This document shows, one piece after another, positions 1-6,249 of a stretch of 46,221 nt of DNA. This stretch comes from Gammaproteobacteria bacterium. Its GTDB lineage: Bacteria; Pseudomonadota; Gammaproteobacteria; Steroidobacterales; MnTg04. The position numbers and the translations under genes are program-made. The stretch's first letter is position 1. Each line of letters opens with the position of its first letter. The notes beneath the pieces were generated by a model. The model was not told the origin of the DNA. It worked only from the letters and a program-made list of their open reading frames with translations, and made no database searches. The DNA is taken from NCBI GenBank assembly GCA_027292775.1, contig JAPUGL010000057.1:1-46221 (forward strand), written 5' to 3'.

Positions 1-162
1 TATGAGCAGCTCAAGGAGCTGTCCCGCGGCCGGCAAATTACCCGCGACCAGCTACAGGCTTTCGTCCGTGGTCTGGATATTCCGGAGCAGGCCCGCGCAG
101 CGCTGCTGGATCTATCGCCGGAGACCTATCTCGGCATGTCCAGATCGCGGCGGCGGACCTGA
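1..162 (+). CDS. purB: Adenylosuccinate lyase, C-terminal fragment (5' truncated by window)
   Basis: Frame 1 reads YEQLKELSRGRQITRDQLQAFVRGLDIPEQARAALLDLSPETYLGM...stop, resembling the PurB C-terminus. Confidence 0.8.
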   Translation, partial: YEQLKELSRGRQITRDQLQAFVRGLDIPEQARAALLDLSPETYLGMSRSRRRT

Positions 163-171
163 TCGCGGAAA

Positions 172-660
172 ATGCCTGGCGAAAGCGGTCTGCCGGCAAC
201 GATCGAGACCCGTGACCAGGCCGTGGCTGCATTCGAGCAGCTGATACTCGCTGCGACGGCTGCGCTGAATATTGTGAGCGACCGGCTGAATCCTGCATTG
301 TTTAATGACCCCGTCCTGATCGAGGCTTTGCGCCAGAAAATTTTACAAAGAAGGCGAATGCTGATCAGGGTTCTTATCCGGCAGCCGCGCCAGCCCGTCA
401 TCAATGCGCCGAGATTTTTTGCCCTGGCCAGACGGCTGGGCAGTAACTTCGAAATGCGTGCAGCGCGGCGGGACACCAGCCTGACTGCATCGCTCATCAT
501 CCGCGACCGGCACTCGATGATTTATCGGCCATCGTTCGAACGTTGGGATGGCCAGCTGATTTCCGCAGACCCGATTGGCATAAAGGAATGGCTGGAAACC
601 TTCGATAGCGCCTGGGACAACGCCAGCGAAACGCCCGAGCTACGCGAAACAAGATTGTAA
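172..660 (+). CDS. DUF7931-like / phospholipase D-like small protein
   Basis: 162 aa ORF directly after purB; residues such as LIIRDRHSMIYRPSFERWDGQLISADPIGIKEW resemble the DUF7931 family. Confidence 0.55.
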   Translation: MPGESGLPATIETRDQAVAAFEQLILAATAALNIVSDRLNPALFNDPVLIEALRQKILQRRRMLIRVLIRQPRQPVINAPRFFALARRLGSNFEMRAARRDTSLTASLIIRDRHSMIYRPSFERWDGQLISADPIGIKEWLETFDSAWDNASETPELRETRL

Positions 661-699
661 AATCGTCTGTACCGGCTCGTTCATGAATAATCTGTGCCG

Positions 700-3018
700 T
701 CAGGGGCCGACCGTCAGCACGAATCCTTCACTGTGGCTGGGGTTCTCCGCACCGTTATCAAATGCGGTGATTATCATCAACTGGCTGCCAAACAGATCCG
801 GCAAGCGCGTAATCGTGACCTGGCCGGTGTTCGGGTCGATGCTGATCGCCGCGAAATCTATAGGCGGGCTGATCGTGTAGGTCACCGTCTGAGACGTTTC
901 ATCCGGGTTGACTGCGGCCGGCGTGACCGCGAAACCGACGACACCGGGGAAATTCAGGGGCAATACAATATCACCGGGGATACTGAAAACGGGCGCGTCG
1001 TTTATCGCCGTTACCGTAAAAAGAAAATTCTGCTGCCAGGTGTTGTTTACAGCCTGGCCATCGTCGGCCGTAATGGTGAAAATCTGGCCGCCATTCATGT
1101 TTGCCGCCGCGGTCGCGCTCAGCGTGCCGCTGGCAGGATCGAAAACCAGGTTTGCGAAGCCTGTCAGGGCCGGGTCGGGGCTGATGCTGTAAATGACACT
1201 CTGTCCGGACTCGTCCGCGGTCACCGGGCCGGGGACTACGCCACGCACCACGGTGCCAGCGAAATCTTCCGCCAGCAATAAATCTGCAACGCTGAATGCG
1301 GGCGGGTTATTGACGTCCGTCACCGACAATAAAAAGCTGTCGCTGACCGACTCAGCGAGGTCACTGGCCGAGACAGTCAGATTGAGCGGCCCGGACTTGG
1401 CATCGGAATCGGATGGAAACCCGCTGAGGATTCCACTGACCGGGTCAAACTGCAGACCGCTTCCCGTGGGCAGGCCAAGCAGCGCAAATGAAAGCGCGTC
1501 ACCATCGCTGTCGCTGAAAAAGGCCGCCAGGTTGATCGAGAAGAACTGGCCTTCGGTCGCCGTTGAATCCGGCACCGGTTGCAACAGTTGTGGCGCATTC
1601 GGCGTCGTAATCGTCAGCGACTGGCTGGCCGTGCTGATGAGGCCCGCCTCGTCCCGGACCGTCCAGACGACCGTATGCAAGCCAACGGGAAAGCCAGCGG
1701 CGGGTGCGTCGTTGCTAACGATCAGCAGACCCACGGTGGTGACGTTGTCCGCCACCACCGGTAGCCCCAGGTTGACCACGGTCAGCGCCCCATCTTGTAC
1801 CTGGGTAATATCCGCGGGCGCTTGTATGGATGGCGCCGCCTGGTCCCGGACCGCGACCCGCGTGGTAGCCAGCGATGTATTTCCCGAACTGTCGGTCGCG
1901 ATGAACGTGACCAGGGTTTCACCGAGCGCGAAGATCGGTGGCGCATCGTGAATAATCTGTACCGGATCACCGCTGTCGTCCACCGCCTGGACCTGGGCAA
2001 GCGTTCCCGCGATAGCCGGGTCTGCGGCCAGGGTTCCGTTTGCGTCGCTTGCGGCGACAGTAAAAGGCGGCGGTACTTGCAAGAACACCGGGGCGATGGT
2101 GTCACCGGATGGTGGATTGACGGAGCAAGCAGTCGGGTCGACCACTGGCACCGCGGTACCGGAAAATACCACGAAGTTGTTATTGCGGAACCTGATAACC
2201 TGACCGTTCAGATCGAGATCGGTCGGCAGTGCGACAAAACTGCCATTCAGGGAAAAATAGACGGTGCCAGCGGAGTCCTGACCGTTCAGCAAGCAATCGG
2301 ACAAATCCTGGCTGACCGCCTCTACCATGCTGAATATAGGAACCGGTATTCCATTTCTGACGGCGATATCGTTCAGGACATTGGCGAGCCCGCCGAGCAG
2401 CAGAGCATATTGTCTTTGTTCTTCCGGTGAGGCTGGGTCCGGTGCAATCGGATCCTGCGGCAGAACCGTAAAAATATCGAACCCGAAAACTTGTATCGCT
2501 TCGCTGCGGACCGCATCGACCGCAACCGGGAAACTCACTGGTCCGGTACGCATACGGGCCCTCGTCAACATGGCCTGGCTGATGATATTGATCGCAGCAG
2601 TGGAACTCCCCGACAAGGCCAGACCCTGCAATTCATCGTTGGCTGCCAATTGAATCACCCGTTTTAGCGCCGGGTCTGGCGTCGAATCGGATTCATCGAC
2701 GTAGCTGCCACCGCGGCTTGTGGCTATCAGCAATTGCGCGCCTGAATTGAGGGTAGCGAACCAGTGACCGGTGCCATCGGTGACAGTGCTTAGCAAAGAA
2801 CCCGAACCGCTCGGTTGACCGGCGACATCAGCAGGCCAAAGATCGATATTCGCATCCGCAATCGGCCCCTTTGACGCCACTCCTTCGATGCTTACCGCCG
2901 TTAACGTCTCGGTCGTTGCGCTGGCAGCATTATCGTCGCTGCCACTGCCGCAGCCGGTCATCGCCAGCAGAACGGCGGCCAGGCTCGTGCGCAATATTGT
3001 CGAATACGATAGGTACAT
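700..3018 (-). CDS. Large lipoprotein with HYR-like and repeated Ig/cadherin-like domains
   Basis: 772 aa; lipobox-type signal (LAMTGC), GSGSDD spacer, HYR-like segment (VTFIATDSSGNTS), He_PIG-like repeats (GLQFDPVSGILSGFP). Confidence 0.75.
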   Translation of the reverse strand: MYLSYSTILRTSLAAVLLAMTGCGSGSDDNAASATTETLTAVSIEGVASKGPIADANIDLWPADVAGQPSGSGSLLSTVTDGTGHWFATLNSGAQLLIATSRGGSYVDESDSTPDPALKRVIQLAANDELQGLALSGSSTAAINIISQAMLTRARMRTGPVSFPVAVDAVRSEAIQVFGFDIFTVLPQDPIAPDPASPEEQRQYALLLGGLANVLNDIAVRNGIPVPIFSMVEAVSQDLSDCLLNGQDSAGTVYFSLNGSFVALPTDLDLNGQVIRFRNNNFVVFSGTAVPVVDPTACSVNPPSGDTIAPVFLQVPPPFTVAASDANGTLAADPAIAGTLAQVQAVDDSGDPVQIIHDAPPIFALGETLVTFIATDSSGNTSLATTRVAVRDQAAPSIQAPADITQVQDGALTVVNLGLPVVADNVTTVGLLIVSNDAPAAGFPVGLHTVVWTVRDEAGLISTASQSLTITTPNAPQLLQPVPDSTATEGQFFSINLAAFFSDSDGDALSFALLGLPTGSGLQFDPVSGILSGFPSDSDAKSGPLNLTVSASDLAESVSDSFLLSVTDVNNPPAFSVADLLLAEDFAGTVVRGVVPGPVTADESGQSVIYSISPDPALTGFANLVFDPASGTLSATAAANMNGGQIFTITADDGQAVNNTWQQNFLFTVTAINDAPVFSIPGDIVLPLNFPGVVGFAVTPAAVNPDETSQTVTYTISPPIDFAAISIDPNTGQVTITRLPDLFGSQLMIITAFDNGAENPSHSEGFVLTVGP

Positions 3019-3083
3019 CTTCCGGTCCGCTTTTTAGGCCTTACATAATCCTTGGCAGTGTGTCCTTATTGGTCCAAATTTTA

Positions 3084-3099
3084 CGTGTCTTACATCACA
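3084..3099. promoter_or_regulatory. Degenerate CRP/FNR-like box CGTGT-CTTACA-TCACA upstream of the Ig-domain lipoprotein gene
   Basis: 8/10 match to TGTGA-N6-TCACA, 66-81 bp upstream of the 3018 start. Confidence 0.35.
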
Positions 3100-3135
3100 C
3101 ATACGGCCGCCAACCCAATGGTTGTCATAGCCGCT

Positions 3136-3177
3136 AAAAAAAAGCAGGCGGCCGGACCGATGGTCACGACCGCCTGT
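3136..3177 (-). terminator. Rho-independent terminator of the FecR-domain gene
   Basis: On the minus strand: CAGGCGG...GACC-ATC-GGTC...CCGCCTG stem followed by C and T8, 24 bp after the FecR stop. Confidence 0.8.
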
Positions 3178-3200
3178 CGTATTGGTTATCGCGGATTGAC

Positions 3201-4739
3201 TTATTCGCCGCCGGGCGGATCATCGGCACTAAATGCAGCAGCACCAGTCACTGAAGTCCCCTGGCCGTCGTCCAGCGAATAGCCGAAACCCGCACCTGAA
3301 ACATCGCCGTTTCCATCGCCGGTGAAAAACCCGCTAAGGCTTCCATCGCCCTGGCTAGCCGACCCGTCAGTGGTATCGGTAACGGTAACGTCATCGAATG
3401 AGCCGCCAAAGGTCGCATCCGCGTTGTCGATTGCAATATCGGTCGCCGACGCGCTCCAGATTTCGTTGTTGGAATCCATAGACAGCGAGACATCAGCGTC
3501 AACCGTCTGCCGGTCAAAATCGGCACTCAGGCTCGCGGAACCCAGGGTACCGACGTTGCCCGAATTATCGGTCGGGTTGGTATTACCGACCAGCGTGAAG
3601 CTTGCCGAGCCGGTGGTCGGCAGCACGGGTGTCGGCTGGCCGACAGACCCGGTTACCCAGTGCAGGCTCGAATTCCCGAGATCCTGGTCGGTGCTCGTGC
3701 CGCTGCCATCGATTACGGAAATCGAACCATTGGCCCAGCGACCCCAGCGAATACCGGACGCGGCGTCCTCGCCGCGGTCGAAAATCTCGGCACTGCCGAC
3801 GCTGTAAATGACATCGCTTGTATTGCCTTGGGGATCTGTCGGGATCGGTCCGCCAAACTGAATCAGGTCACCATCGTCGGTCATCAGGACCGATGCATCT
3901 GAACCGGACGTAACGCCGCTGAAATGGTCGGCTGTCGCCAACGGACCGGCTGCAAATCCGATCTGGCCCGACTGTGAGGCCTGGACCTCGTCGCCTTCGG
4001 TCAGGCTTGCCGACTGGCCGCTGCCATCGGTGCCGGAAACGGCTACCTGGACCACTGCGTCGGATTCTTCGCTCTCACCGGCCGAACCGATGCCTGAGGC
4101 GAGTACATCCGCGCCATCGTCCGACATCTCCGGGGCGCTGTCTTCATCCGCTACATAGCCGTACTGGCCGGGACCAAGCTCAAGCGATCCCGCTGCGTTA
4201 GTCAAGACGACGCCGCCTTCCGTTACACCGACATAGAGGCCGATGTTTCCTGGCTCACACGCAGTCTCACAAAAAACCGCATCATAATCTGTTCCGCGTA
4301 TGCCGATCGTAGCGACCGGAGTGCGCACACGGTAAGCGCTTTTATCTTTTTGCCCAATGGCGCCGGTTATTGATCGAAATCCGCCTTTTACCAGCCCAAA
4401 AAAGCTTCGATCCTGGCTATCGGCTACGCCGGCATCGGCATCGGCATCGGAGCCGGCATAGGAAAACTCTTCGATCACGAACTCCGTCGATGGCCTCAGG
4501 GCGATCAGTCCGCCGTCCGCCATTCGCAACTGCACCCGCCCGTTCGCAGCGGTGCTGAAATGATCTCCACTATCGAAGCTCATTCCCTTTACTACTTCCT
4601 GGTGGGTTCCATCCGTGCTATCCAGCCAAGCCTGTCCGAAAACAAACATGACTTTCCCTGCCTCTGCCGAAACAATCATCGGCAGCATCAGCATGGCTGT
4701 CAGGAGTAATCCCTTCGTCAATGCAAAATGTTTATTCAT
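3201..4739 (-). CDS. FecR-domain protein with C-terminal TbpB/Slam-substrate-like beta-barrel region
   Basis: 512 aa; N-terminal signal peptide, FecR-like core (GKVMFVFGQAWLDS...NGRVQLRMADGGLIALRPSTEFVIEEF...VRTPVATIGIRGTDY); C-terminal GSASFTLVG...SLSADFDRQTVDADVSLS...GDGSLSGFFTGDGNGDVSGAGFGYSL...VTGAAAF. Confidence 0.85.
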   Translation of the reverse strand: MNKHFALTKGLLLTAMLMLPMIVSAEAGKVMFVFGQAWLDSTDGTHQEVVKGMSFDSGDHFSTAANGRVQLRMADGGLIALRPSTEFVIEEFSYAGSDADADAGVADSQDRSFFGLVKGGFRSITGAIGQKDKSAYRVRTPVATIGIRGTDYDAVFCETACEPGNIGLYVGVTEGGVVLTNAAGSLELGPGQYGYVADEDSAPEMSDDGADVLASGIGSAGESEESDAVVQVAVSGTDGSGQSASLTEGDEVQASQSGQIGFAAGPLATADHFSGVTSGSDASVLMTDDGDLIQFGGPIPTDPQGNTSDVIYSVGSAEIFDRGEDAASGIRWGRWANGSISVIDGSGTSTDQDLGNSSLHWVTGSVGQPTPVLPTTGSASFTLVGNTNPTDNSGNVGTLGSASLSADFDRQTVDADVSLSMDSNNEIWSASATDIAIDNADATFGGSFDDVTVTDTTDGSASQGDGSLSGFFTGDGNGDVSGAGFGYSLDDGQGTSVTGAAAFSADDPPGGE

Positions 4740-4815
4740 GGTCTTACCTGTCTTCCCGCCTGGTTTGAGGCAATTTTTCCGGCAAGGATAAATTAGGGTA
4801 TTTCCTTAAAAGCGC

Positions 4816-4831
4816 TGTGAACGGCTTCACA
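4816..4831. promoter_or_regulatory. CRP/FNR-type box TGTGA-ACGGCT-TCACA upstream of the FecR-domain gene
   Basis: 10/10 match to TGTGA-N6-TCACA; centre about 85 bp upstream of the ATG at 4739. Confidence 0.7.
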
Positions 4832-4855
4832 CTTGGTAAGACCTTCCCAAAAATA

Positions 4856-4869
4856 TGTTCAATGGAACA
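4856..4869. promoter_or_regulatory. Palindrome TGTTC-AATG-GAACA between the two CRP-like boxes
   Basis: Perfect 5+5 inverted repeat with 4 bp spacer. Confidence 0.35.
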
Positions 4870-4878
4870 CGCTGAATG

Positions 4879-4894
4879 TGTGACTCGCGTCACA
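4879..4894. promoter_or_regulatory. CRP/FNR-type box TGTGA-CTCGCG-TCACA upstream of the FecR-domain gene
   Basis: 10/10 match to TGTGA-N6-TCACA; exactly 63 bp from the box at 4816-4831. Confidence 0.7.
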
Positions 4895-4926
4895 TTTCCC
4901 GGACCGGGCCGGGAATGGTCCATTTC

Positions 4927-6249
4927 CTACCGCCAGAATCGTCTCAGTGACAGGCCCGCGACGTCCCGATCGAAACCGAATATTTCGACGTTGGAATGAT
5001 TCTTTTGATGTGAGTAATAGTAATTTAACAACCAGTGCCGACTGACCTTCCAGGACATGCGTAGCGTGATTTGGCTCAGCGTGTCCCGGCGGTCGTTATT
5101 TACCTGTTGAGGGAAAAAAATATCGTCATATTCAGACCGGCTTACGCCCACCATCGTCTGGAATCTGACATTGCTATTGAAATTCCAGGCAACGAATACC
5201 TGCAAGCCGGCGATGTAACGGCTGTATTTCGAACTCGATAGTCGGGCATTGTCGCGGCCGAGCAACACTGTCGCACCTGTATTACCCAACCCCGAAGCGC
5301 CAAAAACCCGGCTGATCGTGGACCCGATAAGGAACTGGTCGACATCCCGAACATCCTGATTGTCGGCGAACCGAATCATGGTCAGTTTTCCTAGCACACC
5401 GAAATAGGTTTTCCTGTTCAGTTTGTGTTCGTAATCCCCTTCCAGACTGATGCCCTGGCTGTTTAATTCGCCATCGGTATTCAACCGATAACCCATCAGG
5501 CCGCCGGAGTATTGAATCGTGTCGCCGACCTTCCTGATTCGTGAGCGAATGCTACCCAGGGTCGTATTTACGAAGGAAGCATCCGGATAATTTTTTTGTC
5601 CCAGATCCGCTCGCGTGGTCCAGATCAGTCCTCTTTCGAAGGGCCGTTCAATCTCGCCTCCCAACAAATATGAAGTATAAGGGCTGTCAGTCTCCCTGCT
5701 TTCAGGATCAAGCAAAAAGCCAAGAAACGTACTGGTCTCTGTCGCCGCATTGGCATTGCTGTCAAAACCCGCGGCAATCTGCACGTACGACTGGTAACGG
5801 TTTTTCCCCGGTTGTGCCCTGCTGTCGATTCGAGCCAGTAGATTCCGAATTTCCCGTCGCGCTGCCGGTGGTGGATTCTCGTCACGAATTATCAGCAAAT
5901 GGAATCTTGCTTCCACCAAATTCTCTTCGACAAAATATGCGCGGGCAAGATCAAGACGCGCCGCGGCGAAAGATGGATCATTGTTGACGGTCCGTTGCAA
6001 AGCGAAAATCGCCTTGCCGGTATGACCTGTTTCGAGCAACGCCAGCCCGAACAGGTAATCGAACCGGCTGTTACCGGCCAGCTGCGGTTCGATGGGCGAA
6101 AGAATTTCGAGCGCCTGCGCAGGCTGCCCCACGTTCAACATTTCCTGTGCTTTTCGCAGACTTTCGTCGGAGGCCAAAGCCACGGCGCTATACGCCAGGG
6201 CCAGCATGGCCATCAGCGATTTGAAAATCCGATCAGAATTGGATGTCAT
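4927..6249 (-). CDS. TPR plus outer-membrane beta-barrel protein, Slam-like (DUF560)
   Basis: 440 aa; signal peptide, TPR-like helices (QALEILSPIE...GHTGKAIFALQRTVNNDPSFAAARLDLARAYFVEENLVEARFHL), then a beta-rich C-terminal half ending in FDRDVAGLSLRRFWR. Confidence 0.75.
   Translation of the reverse strand: MTSNSDRIFKSLMAMLALAYSAVALASDESLRKAQEMLNVGQPAQALEILSPIEPQLAGNSRFDYLFGLALLETGHTGKAIFALQRTVNNDPSFAAARLDLARAYFVEENLVEARFHLLIIRDENPPPAARREIRNLLARIDSRAQPGKNRYQSYVQIAAGFDSNANAATETSTFLGFLLDPESRETDSPYTSYLLGGEIERPFERGLIWTTRADLGQKNYPDASFVNTTLGSIRSRIRKVGDTIQYSGGLMGYRLNTDGELNSQGISLEGDYEHKLNRKTYFGVLGKLTMIRFADNQDVRDVDQFLIGSTISRVFGASGLGNTGATVLLGRDNARLSSSKYSRYIAGLQVFVAWNFNSNVRFQTMVGVSRSEYDDIFFPQQVNNDRRDTLSQITLRMSWKVSRHWLLNYYYSHQKNHSNVEIFGFDRDVAGLSLRRFWR

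Follow-up and report, generated by a model that had tools for sequence, protein, structure and literature searches.

A sequence-only reading of a 46,221-nt contig (hereafter the window) proposed that two neighbouring genes encode a Slam-type outer-membrane translocon and its passenger, a protein with a FecR domain. The locus raises two questions: do these genes form a dedicated pair, and, if so, is export of the FecR protein what the pair does?

A Slam-like gene and a FecR gene form a recurrent pair

Both open reading frames were found where that reading had placed them, on the minus strand (Table 1). The gene for the Slam-like protein, P0002, lies upstream of the gene for its FecR-barrel partner, P0001, with a spacing of 187 nt. 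The frames, the pairing and the C-terminal domain (CTD) of the partner are conserved, at 81-87% identity within the genus and 24-58% across other families, which rules out chance occurrence. Promoter-like matches were no commoner than in shuffled sequences. Past the second gene, a terminator-like hairpin (-26.1 kcal/mol, z -3.3, equalled by no shuffle) is followed by UUUUUUUU; with its long stem and eight trailing U residues just past the P0001 stop, it probably terminates a transcript of the pair's own.

Table 1. Features of the gene pair and of its downstream neighbour in the window
Feature	Coordinates	Strand	Remarks
P0002, Slam-like outer-membrane protein, 440 aa	4927..6249	-	signal peptide, TPR and C-terminal beta-barrel domain
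P0002 TPR repeats			about residues 30-145
P0002 barrel domain	4930..5802	-	about residues 150-440; profile homology to DUF560/SlipAM barrels
P0001, FecR-barrel partner, 512 aa	3201..4739	-	Sec signal peptide, no lipobox
P0001 FecR-like domain	4275..4664	-	about residues 26-155; begins straight after the signal peptide
P0001 CTD, TbpB_B_D-related	3204..3767	-	residues 325-512; invariant WGRW at start
Intrinsic-terminator-like hairpin with U8	3135..3177	-	just past the P0001 stop codon; long stem
Ig/HYR-domain lipoprotein, 772 aa	700..3018	-	lipobox LLAMTGC; downstream of the pair

A search for related loci with a single protein returned one locus. Searching the class (274 genomes) with a profile of the CTD gave 27 matches, which came from 21 genomes: 23 loci with an adjoining Slam-like gene, a second copy at one of these and three fragments at contig edges. 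The sequence-only reading would have been refuted by FecR-barrel homologues that routinely occur in genomes lacking any Slam-like gene; none was seen, and at all 23 CTD loci uncut by contig ends the two genes adjoin, as a type 11 secretion (T11SS) cargo gene is expected to adjoin a Slam-family gene. Viewed from the Slam-like gene, a same-strand FecR gene lies downstream at 78 of 85 loci. The exceptions include two loci cut by contig ends, one with the FecR gene just upstream and one with a divergent arrangement; three weaker homologues (L186, L187 and L193) have no FecR gene within the fetched stretch. In a later, wider sample of the phylum, all 12 loci had an adjoining partner, which carried a FecR domain in 10; the partners at L256 and L258 consist of CTD repeats with no FecR match by profile.

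Overall, 90 of 97 loci, from 74 genomes and 48 families, have a FecR or CTD partner directly downstream, a count that describes the FecR-linked branch and not all Slams, since the search profile was itself made from paired genes and loci of one genus are not independent. The two genes are often joined by ATGA-type overlaps. The pair thus recurs, with near-obligate adjacency, across at least 48 bacterial families. The proposal of a dedicated pair is upheld, and we regard the identity of the pair as strongly established.

The upstream gene encodes a Slam-superfamily protein

P0002 was described as half TPR-like and half rich in beta strands. It matches TPR_19 (4.4e-8) and TPR_Slam (6e-4, under the curated cut-off), and its second half is beta-rich, with an aromatic end (...RRFWR). 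An N-terminal TPR region is expected of Slam/T11SS proteins, and TPR_Slam was found in 26 of 27 near homologues. The SlipAM model (PF04575) did not match P0002 alone at E values up to 1 (Pfam); among homologues it matched 13 of the 27 near ones, at best with 5.8e-12, and 29 of the 52 in the wider set, at best with 3.2e-10.

We therefore place the barrel at the level of the family profile. The comparison set was the barrels of six canonical Slams whose genes adjoin TbpB-type genes. Against it, the profile of the barrel half scored 98.8% by hhalign over 279 columns (E 1.1e-16, a single comparison). The reversed control reached 5.1% (E 0.008) and shuffled controls at most 0.2%; a small share of the signal is accordingly generic beta-barrel composition, and the gap stays very large. 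The same profile matched a Slam (E 9e-13) whose gene neighbours those of two TbpB-type lipoproteins. The C-terminal DUF560 (SlipAM) domain is therefore present at family-profile level, and membership of P0002 in the Slam/DUF560 superfamily is borne out. In a tree, the FecR-linked proteins form their own branch (support 99/97), and the six canonical Slams, which lack FecR neighbours, fall outside it. Given this separation, the function of the FecR-linked proteins may have shifted.

A profile search of the PDB gave TPR matches only for the Slam-like protein and none for the partner; in a plasmid search P0002 had no match and P0001 a single weak one, to FecR. P0002 also matched, at its C-terminal strands, BBP2_2 (5.9e-5, 22.6 bits against a cut-off of 23.7) and EpsL (4.1e-7, 29.3 bits against a cut-off of 275). 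As both matches fall under their cut-offs and cover about 100 residues only, we rejected an identity as an EpsL or BBP2 porin.

The partner joins a FecR domain to a TbpB-like C terminus

The FecR-like domain of P0001 matches PF04773 at 2.7e-9 (residues 61-155; Pfam). The absence of a lipobox cysteine from the Sec-type signal peptide, read from sequence, was confirmed; among 78 members of the partner family, two had a lipobox-like match, both within the hydrophobic core. A Sec signal peptide is expected of T11SS cargo, whether lipidated or soluble. A low-complexity linker leads from the FecR domain to the CTD, the conserved region from which the sequence-only reading had quoted its strands. In the GIRWGRW motif that it had noted as a linker, WGRW is invariant in 25 homologues.

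That reading had likened this end of the protein to TbpB. The TbpB_B_D model (PF01298) found no match in P0001 at E values up to 1 (Pfam) and none in 94 genomes of the class, so the yardstick, a 30-row alignment of PF01298 matches, was drawn from the phylum. Against it, the CTD scored 95.2% (E 2.6e-8) with a near set of homologues and 96.3% (E 1.8e-9) with a wide set, hhalign values that come from single comparisons with a yardstick aligned in this analysis and that are evidence of homology, not of structure. Reversed and shuffled sequences, the Slam-like barrel and the FecR domain reached at most 0.2%. The LP-TG start, the ADF strand and the GxFxG strand line up, and the alignment is in register over this whole span. 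The CTD profile also matched a TbpB_B_D protein beside a Slam (9e-5). In the wider set, one FecR protein (L253:7288-10743) combines, in the same chain, a FecR domain at 1.9e-10 with a match to TbpB_B_D that stays below threshold (3.4e-4), and among 55 FecR proteins another matched TbpB_B_D at 0.0054. The TbpB likeness thus holds at profile level.

The sequence-only reading had doubted that the FecR domain acts in classical signalling, and our results agree. P0001 shares PF04773 with the FecR of FecI-FecR-FecA systems; it differs in that it lacks a cytoplasmic anti-sigma part and a transmembrane helix, its FecR domain directly follows the signal peptide, and no FecI or FecA gene neighbours it. 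Neither a TonB receptor gene nor one for an ECF sigma factor adjoins the pair in the window. An identity as a FecR anti-sigma protein was therefore rejected. P0001 also scored 30.5 bits against the LapA retention-module model NF033682, under the cut-off of 50.

AlphaFold runs on a two-row alignment (the window and L062) gave poor models, with pLDDT values of 43 and 41 for the two proteins and about 25 in the P0002 barrel region. These models show helical repeats at residues 4-144 of P0002 and eight strands following LPTTG in P0001. A Foldseek search of PDB folds with the poor CTD model returned nothing meaningful.

The FecR domain is the constant part of the partner

Across partners, the FecR domain is better conserved than the CTD (mean identity 0.388 vs 0.285). 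It is present in nearly all of them, and the barrel may be single, repeated or missing; by eye, the L167 partner has up to four candidate copies. FecR domains without a barrel occur at about ten loci (L157, L159, L175, L176, L181, L190, L191, L257 and L260-L262), so barrel recognition is not the sole job of the pair there.

This is the reverse of published cargo, in which, in the part of PMC12282271 available, the N terminus varies and the C-terminal barrel is constant. The claim that a FecR domain is the passenger of a Slam oversimplifies: the partner does carry FecR, and the word "passenger" is questionable, given a near-invariant FecR and a barrel that varies.

Several FecR-only partners end in long polyproline tails (L260:4069-5046, L262:4476-5255, L253:10838-11665 and L190:1688-2737), which could span the periplasm. 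At the other extreme are very long partners with barrel repeats (L256:6180-9239 and L258:6135-9752), which, judged by eye, may retain a degenerate FecR domain. The L256 partner, with proline-threonine repeats and three barrel-like repeats, resembles the "Sphingomonas surface proteins" of PMC12282271.

CHASE2 and Ig/HYR genes lie near many pairs

Of 85 loci, 23 have a gene for a CHASE2 adenylate/guanylate cyclase nearby, and most have none in the fetched stretch. The trait changes 12 times on the tree, so a CHASE2 neighbour has often been gained or lost. CHASE2 cyclase or kinase genes directly adjoin the FecR-only partners of L260-L262; CHASE2 genes adjoining the pair were located at L082:5260-7506, L142:6568-8805, L260:1842-4016 and L261:132-3746. 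The window contains no CHASE2 gene, and the two in this genome sit on other contigs, with no FecR gene found nearby. Clusters in Campylobacterota combine a CHASE2 cyclase, a phosphodiesterase, a FecR outer-membrane protein and a TPR protein (PMC9239204), and in Sinorhizobium CHASE2 cyclases act downstream of NsrA, a barrel protein of the outer membrane (PMC7529298, PMC13001267).

At 22 loci the FecR gene is directly followed by a gene for an Ig/HYR/cadherin-type lipoprotein, 21 of which have a lipobox-like motif. These proteins are 226-2899 aa long with a KGP motif near the N terminus, and occur in the window (Table 1), at L063, L066, L074, L078-L080 and L137-L140, and elsewhere. They are possibly a third component or a surface adhesin. 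The copy in the window is probably a separate transcription unit and is a possible associated part of the pair.

Export of the partner is the favoured reading, with signalling as a serious rival

We lean, with somewhat better than even confidence, towards a FecR-linked branch of Slam/T11SS translocons that export, at least partly, their own FecR-barrel partners. P0001, soluble and without a lipid, would cross the inner membrane via Sec. The Slam-like barrel of P0002 would then recognise its TbpB-type CTD, and the protein would be moved through or onto the outer membrane, to be displayed or released. The conserved FecR domain would be the common working part of the pair, whether it travels out along with the barrel or stays bound at the TPRs in the periplasm. 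Soluble cargo that depends on Slam, HphA for one (PMC8560813), provides the analogy by which P0001 is likely to be exported by P0002. Recognition, translocation, topology and the FecR ligand are what we infer in this scheme.

The conservation of FecR together with the CHASE2 link makes a signalling role a serious rival, if a rather unlikely one. Here the Slam-like TPRs would hold a periplasmic FecR domain, the barrel, where present, would sense the outside, and an inner-membrane CHASE2 cyclase or kinase, or another protein in this genome, would relay the signal. The CHASE2 cyclase genes near 23 loci, the FecR-only partners, several of them polyproline-tailed, directly beside CHASE2 genes at L260-L262, and the stronger conservation of FecR than of the CTD all point this way, as do the precedents from Campylobacterota and NsrA. 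Against it, most fetched stretches, the window among them, lack CHASE2, this genome's two CHASE2 genes stand apart from any FecR gene found, and a periplasmic relay needs no TbpB-type barrel. The two ideas could be combined in a Slam branch turned receptor, which threads the TbpB-type barrel outward as FecR, at the TPRs, reports to CHASE2 or other relays; this we consider unlikely.

LapA-type adhesins offer another model, as their retention module lodges on the periplasmic side. A barrel at the surface with FecR lodged periplasmically at the Slam-like pore would tether P0001 without a lipid anchor. In favour, P0001 has no lipobox even though adhesin-like lipoproteins are encoded beside the pair. 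The FecR part is weakly similar to NF033682 in 14 of 25 homologues (best 1.2e-9). P0001 itself stays below that model's cut-off, however, a likeness of this kind may be common to FecR folds in general, and HphA-type cargo is released following Slam export (PMC8560813); we judge such partial export improbable. Least probable is a reading without protein export, in which a periplasmic FecR protein is encoded next to an ordinary TPR-containing outer-membrane protein of porin or polysaccharide type. The BBP2_2 and EpsL matches at the C-terminal strands of P0002 would favour it, but they are sub-threshold and short beside the 279 columns of the Slam match, no conserved polysaccharide genes were seen nearby, and the TbpB-type CTD would be left unexplained.

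Relation to known secretion and signalling systems

P0002 resembles the Slam/T11SS outer-membrane proteins (DUF560, SlipAM PF04575; Slam1/2, NilB, HrpB and HsmA) in its TPR and C-terminal barrel, in profile homology across the entire barrel and in an adjoining partner with a TbpB-type CTD. It differs in its separate branch, in falling under the Pfam models, in a partner with FecR, in frequent CHASE2 neighbours and in the absence of a TonB receptor. Like T11SS cargo (TbpB, HphA/haemophilin and HrpC), P0001-type proteins are predicted to be secreted and have a variable linker and a TbpB_B_D-related CTD that is sometimes repeated; unlike it, their constant part is the N-terminal FecR domain, and the barrel may be missing. 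FecR and TPR proteins stand by CHASE2 genes in many relatives, as in the CHASE2-FecR-TPR clusters (PMC9239204) and NsrA-CHASE2 cAMP signalling (PMC7529298). In contrast to those clusters, the window lacks CHASE2.

In the part of PMC12282271 available, FecR is not named among T11SS cargo architectures and the word is absent. The literature we found held nothing linking FecR with T11SS, DUF560 or Slam; as supplements and subscription papers lay outside the search, the novelty of the pairing is provisional. According to the same part of PMC12282271, T11SS proteins fall into ten clusters, with secretion verified in cluster 1 only, and recognisable cargo is rarely found next to members of the marine cluster 3. 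The FecR-linked branch, in which a single domain (FecR) identifies the partner across dozens of families, offers a handle on this cargo question. With natural partners that have one, several or no barrels, the part of the cargo that a Slam-type gate recognises becomes testable. If the CHASE2 link is functional, outer-membrane protein export would be tied to cAMP signalling; if the receptor reading is true, a secretion gate would double as a trans-envelope sensor.

Further relatives of the pair

Six Slam-like homologues (L084-L089) have additional N-terminal SH3 domains (SH3_3 in six, best 2.3e-25), which possibly bind the cell wall. A further TPR-barrel group (L233, L236, L237 and L238; profile E about 1e-13 to 1e-15) adjoins, by eye, genes for ECF sigma and zinc-finger anti-sigma factors. 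An apparent second, paralogous pair in the genome was rejected, as the fragment (L090, G000:C45:1-5851) is the same locus of a sister strain, with 82% DNA identity to positions 1-3873 of the window and 88% to Bacterium MnTg04; sequence from two sister strains seems to be present in the assembly.
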